DNA of 64,000 bases from Macrocystis pyrifera (Eukaryota > Sar > Phaeophyceae > Laminariales > Laminariaceae): positions 9,625,930 through 9,689,929 of the forward strand of contig JASSKH010000007.1 of assembly GCA_031763025.1 (NCBI GenBank), in the 5' to 3' direction. The notes beneath the pieces are model-generated. The model had not been told where the DNA came from. It ran no database searches and saw only the letters and a program-made list of their open reading frames with translations. Shown one piece after another: positions 23,901 through 45,600 of this stretch; positions within the stretch are counted from its first letter, which is position 1, and each line of letters opens with the position of its first letter. Made by a program: the position numbers and the translations under genes.

Positions 23901-26900
23901 TCCCTTGAGATGTCGCCGTCCACCCGTACCCCAGCGGAGGTCTACACCTCGGCTACGATGTGCTGCAGGTGGTAAAACAATTTGTCGGATTTCGGAAGAC
24001 ACAAAAAGGAGACGACCCCCCCTCCCGACCCCAACTGAACGCCTCCACTTGACTCGCGGACCGCGATACACAGTCCCTCACAAGCAGCCACAGCCCACGA
24101 AATTGAGCCTCGCCCCCCCCGGGGTGAGTGAGGGCGTCGTGTCGGGTGCATCAGGCAGCAGTGCAGTCGTACGCAGGCAGCCGGAAACGACTCTCGCGGT
24201 GATTTCGTGGAGTTAGAAGCTGTGAGCCAGCAAAAAGCTCGCAAGAGTAATCAGATAAACGGCTCGCTTTGCCTGCCGGAGCCTGCCGTACGTACGTGCA
24301 CGATCGATTCCATGGCTGCGTACGTCACCGGTGAAACAAGAGCGCGTCTCTTCTTGGCGTGTTTTTTTGGGGTTACTATTAGTAGTTACCCTCTTGATTC
24401 TTGGAGCTCCCGCGGGGGGAGGGGGAGTCGAAGACACAAGGCGACGATAGCGGCACACGACCACTCCGCGGTCGGGAGGTTTCTACAGATTTTTTGTTGG
24501 CCAAGTTTCAATGCAAGGAGGCGTCCGGCTAGGGGAAAAGCAAGACATGGTCTTGCGGCCACACTGCTGGGGGCGTTGGCGCTGATGCTCGTTACCCGAT
24601 TTGGTTAACAGGCAGATTTTTAGTATCGTTGGCTTAGGTCGCTATCGAAAGGGCTGTCAGCGGGGGCTTGGGCTCATGTGCTTGAAAAATGATGCGGGGA
24701 TACTATTACGGGGGTCCATAGTTAATAGACCTATGGTATACATAAAAAACCTATATATTTACCTATTTTTACTAACAATATTTGGTCCCATTAACTATGG
24801 ACTCCCGTAATAGTTACGATCCGTGAGAGGTGTTTAGTAAGTCTATTACTGGGTCCAAAAGTGGGTAAAAGCGGGCAAGAGAAAGACAAAACCGGACTCT
24901 TGCTGATTTTGCCGGTAGTTTTCTTGAGATTTTGAAAAACATGATGTTGTGTATCCAAGTTTGTTTCTTTTTTTTTTTTTGCTGCTGCTGTTTTGGCGAA
25001 ACGCCTACGCGCAGTCTACTCGAGAAATATTCCCGAAGAGTGTTCGCCGTGGCCTTAAGTAGTGATGAATACGTATTATGATGGTATTGAACGAGTCTGA
25101 CACGATACGTACCCATGGGTGAAACCTTGAATCGATACGATTGCGATCGTCCCTTCGAATTTTCACTGCGGCAGATCGAAGCTTTTCGTTCGGCATCATG
25201 TCATGCGAACACTATTATAGTGTCGGAATGAATAGTACGGAGACATGCCAAGGAGTCGAGGGCAAACGAATGCGGTTCGACACGATATATAAAGCTTCAA
25301 CACTTCGATACATGGACACTTTCGACACGATTTTCATTTTTTTTTTTCTTTTTTTTTTTTTTTTCTTTTTTTTTTTTTTTTTTTTTTTTTTTTTTTTTTT
25401 TTTTTTTTTTTTTTTTTTTTTTTTTTTTTTTTTTTTTTTTTTTTTTTTTTTTTTTTTTTTTTTTTTTTTTTTTTTTTTTTTTTTTTTTTTTTTTTTTTTT
25501 TTTTTTTTTTTTTTTTTTTTTTTTTTTTTTTTTTTTTTTTTTTTTTTTTTTTTTTTTTCTTTTCTTTTTTTTTTTTTTTTTTTTTTTTTTTTTTTTTTTT
25601 TTTTTTTTTTTTTTTTTTTTTTTTTTTTTTTTTTTTTTTTTTTTTTTTTTTTCTTTTTTCAGCGTCGGCGGTGGGAGCAAGCCCACGCTTTGCGGAGCGG
25701 AAGCCATCTCTCACAACGACTCCTACTGTTAGGGTGCGTGCGGTGTGGCGGGGGTTGGGAGTTAGCGGGGGGGGCGGGGGGGGAGGGTACTAGATATAAT
25801 GCATGGCCGTAGTCGTATGACCATAGACCCTCGCACCCCTGCAATGCCGGACGGAACACGTCGGGTTTTCACCGACCAGGCAGGCATTGCTTGCACCAAG
25901 CGCGAAGCGAAACGTGAGGTGTTCGGCGAGTCGCATGAAACAGGGAGCGACATTCCTACCAAAAAAAGCCTGTGAGGCGGACGGACCTGCACATGGATGA
26001 TAGCTTCGACGAGTGAATATATTTTCCGGTGTGGCCACTTGCCAGTTATAGGGGGGGGCCAGGGGAAGTGTTAGAGGTGGGGGAAGGGGATGGGGGGGAG
26101 GTTGGAGATCCTGGCGACGGCAGGAGGATGTTCAAAGGCGCTGCTCTCTGTGTGCACGGTTCTGGTGGGTGTCGATAGGCGGTGCGCAAGGGTCAAACGC
26201 GGAGTCGGGCGAGATATGTAGATTGTGTACACGGTTATGATGGTGCTCGTTCAGCGAGATCAAGCCGGCACGGGTAAGAGAACGCTGCAGGGCCCAGGAG
26301 GGAGGGGGTCATGATGGGACAGGAGATAGAGCGGGGCTCAGTACGCAGCAGTGAAAGCGTTTTTATACCTCTCTGACCCGAATATAGGCACCATTTATAT
26401 ACATATTATTAAATAAGAAATATCCTTATATAGGTACATAGTGGTATAAGCAAAGCATTTTTGCCCCCCCCCCCCCCCCCCCCCCCCCCCCCCCCCCCCC
26501 CCCCCCCGAGGAACGGGATTTTGTTACAAGAGATGAGGGAAATAGACGGATGTGACATGGAGGAGTTTGGTACACTATTTAATAGATAGCAGCGAGAAAA
26601 CGATCGCTTTCCTAGGAGATAGATTGGGGCCACAGGTGCCCAACAGGAAGGGGACACGAGAGACTAGCAAAAGGTTTCCATGTGATGTATAGAAATAACG
26701 TTTTGAGCGCCCAAATGTTGGAGGTGTTTCCATTAGGAGTAGGAAAGGTGCTCCGTCTCGAAAGGGATGCGTGGTCAATGGTCAAATGACTAAGGCAAGC
26801 AACAAATGAGTACCCCCCCCCCCCCCCCCCCCCCCCCCCCACCCCCCCCCGCGCTCTACAGGAAACAGGAGGAACAGGAGGAAGCACTGCTCCTAGCGAG

Positions 26901-42607: not shown

Positions 42608-45600
42608 CTACACAGACGAAAGCAGGCGAAAATCAGAGGGGCAGGGGAGCAGGGGTGAGACGAGAGGGCGGGAGCAACCGGAAGGGAAGGGAGAGGAGAG
42701 AATGGGAGGGGGAGAATAGGGGAAGAGAGGAGAGGGGGGGGGGAGAGGAACGGGGAGGAGAGGAGAAGCAAATGCGGTGGGAGGGGGGTTAGGGCAAGGG
42801 AGGGGAAGAGAGGAAACGGGGAGGGCGGGGAGAGGGAAGGGGGTAAGGAAGGGCAAAGGGAGCGGAGCGGAGGGAGGGAGGGAGGGAGGGGGGGGGGGGG
42901 AGGGGCGGAGTGTGTGTAATGCATGGCCGTAGTCGTACAACCATAGACCCTCGTATCCCTACAATGCCGGGACGGAGCACGCCGGGTTTTTACCGACTAG
43001 GCAGACATCGGCTGCACCAAGCGCGAAGAGCCGTGAGGTGTTGGACGAGTCGCATGAAGGGCGAGCTGGATCCTACGAAAGACCTCTTTTGAGGCGGATT
43101 ATCTTGCACATGGATGACAGCGTCAAGGAATTGATTCATTTTCTGGTGTGGCCACTTCCAGAGACAGCAATGAGTTAGCTATGTAACTGCCTCGTGGGTG
43201 CGTTACCAAATACGCTAGCACTATTAATACGTATCATCCCCTTTTTGCGGAGTTAAGCTTCTCCCCATACAATGATCTAACTCGATCGCCAGCCGTGGTA
43301 ACCGCCAAAAAAAAAAAAAGGTACCCTGGCTGTCTAGCTTACGCAGTGAGAGGCGTGTTTCACAGCGTCGTCGCCAACCGACGCCACCCCCTAACCTGCA
43401 TAATTGGGGGGGGGGGGGGGGGTTGTACTCGGTATAATGCATGGCCGTAGTTGTATGACCATAGACCCTCGCATCCCTACAAATGCCGGGACGGAGCACG
43501 TCGGATATTCAACGACCAGACAGACATTGCGTGCACCAAGCGGGAAGCGCCGTGAGGTGTTGGGCGAGTCGCATTAAGGGTGAGCCGCATCCTACTGAGA
43601 ACCGCTTATGAGGCGGACTCGCACATGGATGACAGCTTCACTGAATTAATCAATTTTCCGGTGTGACCACTTTCAGAGACATCAATGAGGGTACTATGTA
43701 ACTGCCTCGTGGGTGCCTTACCACAAACACTACGTTATGCGATCATTGGGGTGGGGGCTATCTCGCATTCTCATCGCCGGCCGACGTGGATGTGGGTGTA
43801 GGGGGGGGGGGGGGGTGTACTTGATAGGAGATATGTACTCGATCTCATGCATGGCCGTAGTCGTATGACCATAGACCCTCGCATCCCTACAAGGCCGGGA
43901 CGGAGCATGTCGGGTTTTCACCGACCAGGCAGACATTGCTTGCACCAAGCGCGAAGCGCCGTGAGGTGTCCGGCGAGTCGCATGAAGGGTGAGCTGCATC
44001 CTACTAAGAACCGCTTGTCAGGCGGACTTGTAACTGGATGACAGTTTCAACGACTTCATTTAATTTCCGGTGTAGCCAACCCCAGAGGCAGCAATGGGAA
44101 TACTATGTACCTGCCTCTTGGGTGCCTCACCATAAATACTACGTGATGCGACCATTCCCCTTGTGCGGAGTAAAGGTTCTTCACCTCGCACAAATGATCT
44201 AACTCGACCACCAGCTGTAACCGACCGCCAGAAAAAAAGCGGTACCTTGGTTGTCTAGCTCAAGTAATGAACGGCATGTTATACAGTGTCGTTGCCAGCC
44301 GATACCAACCCAATCAAAATTCGGGGGGGAGGGGGGGGGGGGTGTACTCATTATCGTGCATGGCCGTAGTCATATGACCATAGACCCTCGCATCCCTACA
44401 ATGCAGGGGGGGGGGGGGGGGGGGGGGGGGGGGTGGTGCATTCATTATCATGCATGGCCGTAGTCGTATGACCATAGACCCTCGCATCCCTACAATGCCG
44501 GGACGGAGCACGTCGGGTTTTCACCGACCAGGCAGACATTGCTTGCAACAAGCGGGGGGGGGTACTAACTTGTTGCTTGCCTCGGTCGTTTGACCATTGA
44601 CCACGCATCCCTTTCGAGACGGAGCACTACTCCTACTGCTAATAGAGACACCCTTGACAGTTGGGCGCTCATTACCGTGTTTCCATGTATTGTATATAAA
44701 TATTTCGCGCATCTTATCCCCCTCCCGTTTCACCGCCCTGTGTCCACCATCTACCTTGTGGGTTGGGGAGGGGGTGAAATCCACGACGACGCCGCCGGCA
44801 CAAGCTGCATGCCCGGCCAGTCGCCCATGGGCAGAAACAAAAACAAGGTTTACACGAGTTTCATTGCGTTTTCGCGCGTACTTATGTCCGGAACGCATAC
44901 ATAACTTTGCTTACCGCGGCAGGCGAAACGGTGGGTGGGTGGGGGCGGGTTACTTACTATTACGGGGGTCCATAGTTAATAGGACCTACGGTACACACAA
45001 AAACCTATATATTTACCTATTTTTACTAACAATATTTGGTCCTGTTAACTATGGACCCCCGTAATACCTGCCTGCTTTGCCTAACCCGACGCCAAAAGAC
45101 ACGACACACGAGTTGAAAATTTGACTTTTTTTTTTCTTCTGTGACCCTACCTACCTGGTGGTGCCACCCCGAGGGCACGAAAATCGCCTCCCCAGGCCCC
45201 TGCAAAACCTCGAGTCTCGGTGCTCCTTCCAGATTGGGGAAGTCGTCGGGGTCGGCGCGGCCGCTGCGCACGTCGGAAGCCAGTTCTCGGCCGTGTCTGC
45301 GAACAAAAAAACCAAGACGCCAACAACAACAACAACAACAACATCAGAAACAACAACAAACAACAACAGCGACTACAGCAACAAAATCAGCAACAGCAAA
45401 AAAAACAGCCGAGAGCAACAGCAGGACCAACGACACAACACAATACTAGCAATAAAAAACCAAAAACAAGGAAAAAAAAAAATGACGCAATGGAACAGCG
45501 ATTGCACGGAAAATATATGGGGGAGGGTGGGTGGGGGGGGGGGGGGGGGGGGGGGGGGGTAGAGATAGAGGAGGAAGTATACGCAGGGAGAGGATGTAAC

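Follow-up and report, generated by a model that had tools for sequence, protein, structure and literature searches.

Several described systems pair a retrotransposon with a shorter partner, or confine its insertions to simple repeats. In the account of PMC3747384, the 3′ ends of mammalian L1 long interspersed nuclear elements (LINEs) resemble those of short interspersed nuclear elements (SINEs) in poly(A) only, and stringent LINE/SINE pairs are eel UnaL2, plant L1 with ZmSINE2/3, and Chlamydomonas L1-1_CR with SINEX-3_CR; the relevant sections of that source name poly(A), TAA, TGTAA, (TTG)n, (TTGATG)n, and poly(T) as terminal repeats, with poly(C) not among them. Microsatellite-specific LINEs discussed in PMC4640811 include Togen, which inserts in (TG)n, and some HERO families, with Togen treated there alongside the restriction-like-endonuclease NeSL/HERO elements without a settled position. 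For the brown alga Ectocarpus, PMC12477816 describes RTEX-N1_Ec32, a nonautonomous element of ~600 bp with more than 6,000 copies, whose 5′ origin is given as undetermined and whose 3′ end is common to the RTE-X LINEs RTEX-1 and RTEX-2_Ec32. Here we analyze a 64,000-nucleotide stretch of the genome of the kelp Macrocystis pyrifera (GenBank assembly GCA_031763025.1, contig JASSKH010000007.1, positions 9,625,930 to 9,689,929, forward strand; hereafter the window), which contains 3′ fragments of a LINE and copies of a shorter, ~0.5-kb repeat.

A sequence-only reading of the window had reported that the LINE and the repeat share a terminus ending in a run of C. That observation is confirmed, and the family is large; the accompanying interpretation, which missed that the C-run is also the insertion target, is partly supported. 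Sequence comparisons make it likely that an apurinic/apyrimidinic endonuclease (APE)–type LINE inserts at C/G homopolymer tracts by target-primed reverse transcription, its tail and its target both consisting of C, together with a parasite that mimics its tail.

The LINE, the repeat, and their common 3′ end

Patterns were counted in a genome of 537,376,219 bases (223 contigs), and script analyses used the window plus loci L022–L050 (30 records, 291,369 bases), the loci having been picked by means of the LINE 3′ end, with 40 of 1,979 candidates scored. Both ends were readable in 43 LINE copies, with one of 44 excluded because its locus ends there. The LINE terminus AGCAACAAATGAGTAC was counted 5,448 times genome-wide (2729 + 2719), against 0 for the reversed control, and in 3,989 cases (1980 + 2009; 73%) it is followed directly by N + CCCCC. 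A run of at least six Cs lies inside the 30 nt past the terminus in 41 of the 43 sampled copies, the first base past the terminus being G in 36, C in 5, and T in 2. Such runs start in the first 10 nt in 40 instances and number one to five per later bin out to 200 nt, and so are not placed at random distances from the terminus, the outcome that the sequence-only reading had set as its refutation. At L024, a LINE end (266–376) passes directly into a second LINE copy (373–1761) with the C-run absent between them, the sole such terminus in the sample.

Open reading frame (ORF) pieces of the L042 copy encode a reverse transcriptase (PF00078, 7.5e-29), whose closest solved structure is LINE-1 ORF2p (1.9e-18), and an apurinic-type endonuclease (PF14529, 29.1 bits against a cut-off of 27.4); PF03372 matched two pieces at 21.4 and 21.8 bits, under its cut-off of 24.5. 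The 43 copies have a fixed 3′ end and apparent truncation lengths of 63 to 4405 nt, every one different. With its endonuclease and reverse transcriptase, variable 5′ truncation, fixed 3′ end, and partial target-site duplications, the element is an APE-type LINE. L042 (4,405 nt) appeared complete because C11 precedes it, and was rejected as a full-length copy: against the 5,448 exact termini, 113 copies carry the 16-mer found at −4.4 kb, only 3 of them with C6 before it, and sequence extending upstream of the L042 start occurs at 56 places genome-wide. L042 is thus truncated, and the LINE is longer than 4.4 kb. Three LINE copies (C205:6833638, C219:1478628, and C221:9872250) are cut within 1 to 2 nt of one internal point just past a C-run, possibly by chance or through 5′-end microhomology.

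The stop codon TGA sits within AAATGAGTAC, and the last ORF pieces of L042 and L050 stop 7 nt short of the terminus, so that the 3′ untranslated region (UTR) consists of GTAC(G) and Cs, almost nil as had been proposed. A very short 3′ UTR of simple repeats is a criterion of the RTE and RTE-X clades, and the arrangement of stop, GTAC(G), and C-run is suggestive of that placement.

In the window, ATGAGTAC was seen 11 times against 1.04 expected. The three LINE fragments there end in the terminus and a C-run, as first described (C28AC9, GC5TC7TC24, and C9 follow), and those at 26508–26813 and 44562–44756 align to 30585–31011 at 83.5% and 80.0%. The LINE and repeat features of the window are as follows.

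26464–26507 (+), C44 run abutting the 5′ end of a truncated LINE, presumed target tract
26508–26813 (+), LINE 3′ fragment, ends ...AACAAATGAGTAC
26814–26850 (+), C-run past the LINE terminus; opens on the terminal C (26813), interrupted by a single A (26841)
30585–31011 (+), LINE 3′ fragment, C-terminal coding region and terminus
31012–31050 (+), G, then C-rich tail C5TC7TC24
44562–44756 (−), LINE 3′ fragment, older (82% to L042), terminus AAGTTAGTAC
44554–44562 (−), C9 separating the LINE from the co-oriented repeat that follows; the last base of the LINE doubles as the first C of the run
44448–44554 (−), repeat, truncated, in chain; terminus GAATGC, then CACCA and a C-run
44343–44408 (−), repeat, truncated, next in chain; C28 before (from 44433, minus strand), C12 after
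43817–44313 (−), repeat, nearly full length, next in chain; duplicated terminus, then C15
43424–43738 (−), repeat, truncated; ends GAGTACAA, then C17
42919–43390 (−), repeat without recognizable GAGTAC; C-rich tract after
28170–28391 (+), repeat between C31 (28138–28168) and C45 (from 28391)
25787–26045 (−), repeat, truncated; variant terminus CTAGTAC, then C-rich
49120–49636 (−), repeat, nearly full length; duplicated terminus, then A and C9
9142–9400 (−), repeat, truncated; ends GAGTAC, then CA and C11
6766–6944 (−), repeat, truncated; variant terminus ATGAATAC, then C19 (from 6740, minus strand)
6683–6719 (−), repeat tail fragment; ends ATAATGAGTAC, then A and C12
6984–7019 (−), repeat tail fragment; ends ATCGAGTAC, then a C-run
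32788–32963 (+), old repeat copy; ends CATGAGTAC, C7 including the terminal C
53762–53830 (+), repeat tail fragment; duplicated variant terminus, C39
56071–56135 (−), repeat tail fragment; terminus present, no C-run after

The repeat is represented by 15 copies or tail fragments on both strands, 14 of which were judged by eye to be followed by a C-run or C-rich tract (the exception is 56071–56135), and 12 of which are clearly 5′-truncated, in agreement with the description of most copies as truncated. The earlier count of about 15 copies ending GAGTAC + C(n) stands in number and in the Cs, but the terminus is often variant (TAGTAC, GAATAC, GAATGC, and AAGTAC) and is missing from 42919–43390; likewise, the "same orientation" given for them applies to the tail relative to each copy, not to the strand. 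The repeat had also been called unrelated to the LINE, which is wrong for its last ~70 nt. A hidden Markov model of five repeat tails matches LINE ends at E values of ~3e-5 to 9e-4 (cut-off 1e-3) over model positions 116–189 of 189, and the alignment of repeat and LINE tails scores 62, compared with a mean of 5.8 and a maximum of 29 in 2,000 shuffles. Without the last 11 nt, it still scores 49 against a shuffle maximum of 27, so that the homology covers ~66–75 nt and not just the last 9–11. Genome counts, model, and alignment agree that LINE and repeat have a common 3′ terminus that mostly ends in C-runs, and on the LINE side this common tail is coding sequence up to the stop at the ORF end.

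Classification of the repeat as a SINE was not borne out: the LINE-derived 3′ tail of a SINE is present, and a Pol III-type head was not found. ARAGORN detected no tRNA in the window. On one 519-bp repeat copy (L038), which contains an internal T15, Rfam yielded a single match at chance level and none to tRNA, 5S, or 7SL. A 5S rRNA origin of the stretch ACGGCCAT was dropped, as Rfam returned no 5S match and all 16 window matches were below the gathering score. One repeat subfamily (L024:1795–2312, L033:8088–8616, L038:8096–8614, and window 43817–44313 and 49120–49636) has a duplicated terminus, ATCGAGTACATCTCTCCTATCGAGTACA, before the C-run; among the copies listed in a survey of tails, those of this subfamily carry ATGCTC in place of GTGCTC ~70 nt upstream. 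A variable-gap pattern count (forward 1,440 versus 6,319 anchors, the remainder belonging partly to the duplicated-terminus subfamily or having a mutated terminus) was not used, since sites on one strand were counted repeatedly. Single-sequence folding gave the LINE and repeat tails the same three-way shape, closed by GUGCUC/GAGUAC. We do not claim a common RNA fold, given the low z values (−0.92 and −0.42), the different fold picked by RNAalifold, and covariation not clearly above shuffles in an alignment of 41 of 55 distinct tails (the 14 omitted include near-duplicates and tails with a misplaced start).

C-runs at the 5′ junction and target-site duplications

The Cs are not confined to the 3′ side. 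In 35 of the 43 LINE copies, the 30 nt preceding the 5′ junction include at least six consecutive Cs, compared with 2.8% of random 30-mers (binomial p ~4e-47), and the corresponding G-run was found before none of the 43. The junction of one of the 35, L042, was placed by hand at a C-run; leaving it out gives 34 of 42. Because the LINE truncation points all differ, the 5′ C-run is not element sequence, and 3 of 113 copies have C6 in the 30 nt leading up to the internal LINE control site. Among repeat copies reaching the tail, 27 of 45 have a 5′ C-run (12 of 16 at ≥90% identity), and none has a G-run. The 5′ start of the repeat, ATGGGTTGGGTTGGCGTCGG, occurs 910 + 930 times genome-wide; on the reverse strand, used for this count because it gave one match per anchor in the listed places, CCCCCC lies within 30 nt upstream of 799 of 930 starts, whereas GGGGGG lies upstream of 2 of 930 (and of 1 of 910 on the forward strand). 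As expected of a target-specific LINE, insertion favors one sequence class, as a strong but not absolute preference.

These flanks bear on two other explanations. If only a poly(C) RNA tail existed, insertion being otherwise unspecific and the 5′ C-runs coincidental or derived from neighbors, the 3′ C-run should exceed the 5′ C-run, as it does in 32 of 43 copies, and Cs should be gained at a CCCC target, as at L022; but the 5′-flank counts, at both LINE junctions and repeat starts and against all three controls, already contradict this explanation, which we consider very improbable. Still harder to credit is that the C-runs are nontemplated bases added by the reverse transcriptase at cDNA ends, or an assembly artifact. 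Homopolymers are error-prone in genome assemblies; however, these runs are C and hardly ever G, and some duplications bring the C-run into both flanks.

The flanks share at least 9 nt (at least three of them non-C) in 10 of 43 LINE copies, compared with 1% of mispaired controls. The longest duplications are those of L040 (20 nt), L035 (19), L046 (16), L022 and L036 (14 each), and L047 and L023 (13 each), and in LINE duplications Cs come first, followed by unique bases. A stricter test, which asked for unique bases after the C-run and took copies whose C-run lies at least three bases from the junction, gave matches in 10 of 42 LINE and repeat copies, where mispaired flanks gave 2.5 on average, and in 5 of 28, where they gave 0.55.

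That the Cs come from the target alone is unlikely, although less so than the two explanations above. The element would then end GAGTACG without a C tail in its RNA, and the Cs would be the rest of the entered tract, altered by microsatellite slippage. C-runs on both sides and duplications that contain Cs agree with this, and known LINEs target microsatellites (PMC4640811). However, L022 lies in TTCCCCATCGAGTC, a CCCC target, yet has 23 Cs past its terminus; its flanks have CCCATCGAGTCAGA in common, the last three bases of which overlap the element. The longest 3′ C-run is typically longer than the 5′ run (medians 19 and 11). L022 and the longer 3′ runs are the grounds for retaining a C tail alongside the C target, the size of the effect resting on assembled homopolymers.

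Chains of elements and a mechanism for insertion

Adjacent elements at most 60 bp apart are on the same strand in all 24 cases, with none opposite; at 61–300 bp, 8 are on the same strand and 1 is opposite, and beyond 300 bp, 13 and 15. The chain in the window, on the minus strand from 44756 to 42919, is made up of one LINE and five copies of the repeat, with one gap exceeding 60 bp, a layout consistent with each tail being the place where the next element landed. Co-oriented close pairs (24 of 24) would also result, without nested insertion, from template switching between C-tailed RNAs or from recombination between C-runs. We regard this as improbable: by inspection, about two-thirds of the 35 C-flanked LINE 5′ junctions lie outside element tails (a loose regular expression flags 15 of 35 as inside, some wrongly), and some of these nontail junctions carry unique-base duplications (L035, L046, L047, and L023). 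Just upstream of the window chain, at ~45160–45290 on the minus strand, is an apparent coding exon reading GPGEAIFVPSGWHHQ (by eye), presumably JmjC-like, and the chain is perhaps in an intron.

Insertion at C/G tracts, with tail and target both C, would bring together the common tail, the C-runs after the terminus and before the 5′ junction, the LINE duplications, and the co-orientation. The endonuclease would nick the G-rich strand of a C/G tract, the exposed 3′ Gs would pair with Cs at the 3′ end of the element RNA, and reverse transcription would begin there; slippage, or a C tail in the RNA, would add further Cs, and a staggered second cut would yield a target-site duplication of Cs and the bases following them. 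The ~0.5-kb repeat, with its copy of the last ~66–75 nt of the LINE, would presumably be moved into such sites by the LINE enzyme as well. Every insertion would leave a C-run that is a new target, resulting in co-oriented head-to-tail chains.

A number of observations weigh against this mechanism or limit it. The terminus lacks NCCCCC directly after it in 1,459 of 5,448 genomic cases, and the 111-nt LINE end at L024 has no C-run past it. C6 is missing from the 5′ junction of 8 of 43 LINE copies (L024 shows no C-run there), the 5′ C-run from 18 of 45 repeat copies, and the upstream C6 from 131 of 930 genomic repeat starts. The repeat start is moreover a fixed point, so its C-run alone could be element sequence, and only truncated copies exclude that. 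In the stricter duplication test 32 of 42 copies showed no match, unique-base duplications are nearly all in LINE copies with almost none for the repeat, and pure-C duplications cannot be told from chance. The difference between 3′ and 5′ run lengths is of modest significance (Wilcoxon p 0.035), and assembled homopolymer lengths are unreliable. The LINE sample, found through its 3′ end, is skewed to young copies, and in old copies the 5′ junction is the alignment end. Neither the genome 16-mer and extension counts nor L051 (1,201 bases) revealed where the LINE truly begins. Covariation for the common tail fold amounted to 3 double changes against a shuffle mean of 1.0, matched by 26 of 500 shuffles. 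Finally, 26 of the 37 window C-runs of at least 12 do not follow an element.

The sequence-only reading had suggested that the element explains many of the poly(C) runs. Of the 37 long runs in the window, 15 are linked to an element (11 lie after an element end and 7 before an element start), which upholds that suggestion in part, but 22 have no recognized element, so most C-runs in the window are still unexplained. An unbroken C251 at 32314–32564 has no recognized element adjoining it.

Other repeats are present in the window. Poly(T) runs of 193 and 88 bases, placed by F-rich ORFs, lie at ~25300–25730, and a short recurrent sequence with inverted ends like GGTCCTGTTAACTATGGACCCCCGTAATAG was noted by eye at ~31510–31630, ~44950–45070, ~58146–58789, and ~62276–62500; it is perhaps a miniature inverted-repeat transposable element.

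Comparison with known systems

The choice of a LINE target may be set by the endonuclease or by pairing of the nicked DNA with the RNA tail, and in L1, where both are A/T, the two can hardly be told apart. A natural poly(C) system would offer an independent test, and it would suggest how some of the long C-tracts of this genome arise. Searches of the open-access literature, supplements and Repbase aside, turned up no LINE described as having a poly(C) tail or a poly(C) target. Sequence common to a LINE and its nonautonomous partner is probably recognized by the reverse transcriptase and here overlaps the protein-coding end. It is conceivable, at slightly less than even chances, that the L1 logic of tail equaling target has been rebuilt on C, with a poly(C)-ended RNA, an endonuclease that opens G-tracts (perhaps via an unusual structure), and an RNA-recognition element inside coding sequence; insertions would then make new, often longer sites, and LINE and parasite would generate much of the poly(C) of the genome.

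As with mammalian L1 and Alu, a nonautonomous family employs the tail of the LINE, human L1 having As where the kelp LINE has Cs; unlike Alu, the kelp repeat also copies ~66–75 nt of LINE 3′ sequence. In this it resembles the stringent pairs, where, according to PMC3747384, the common 3′ tail recruits the reverse transcriptase; it differs from them in that the part held in common encodes protein on the LINE side, the 3′ UTR being nearly absent. Microsatellite-specific APE families exist in the Tx1 and R1 clades. Insertion into simple repeats also recalls the microsatellite-specific LINEs as PMC4640811 presents them, but the kelp target is mononucleotide C, the tail is of the same base, and the element is APE-type. 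The nearest parallel by taxonomy is Ectocarpus RTEX-1/RTEX-2_Ec32 with RTEX-N1_Ec32, again a brown algal LINE and a short element with a conserved 3′ end, which the authors, in the part of PMC12477816 concerned, likewise hesitate to call a SINE. Compared by description only, it differs in that the relevant main-text parts of PMC12477816 mention no C tail or C target; the kelp LINE and the Ectocarpus RTEX elements possibly belong to the same lineage.

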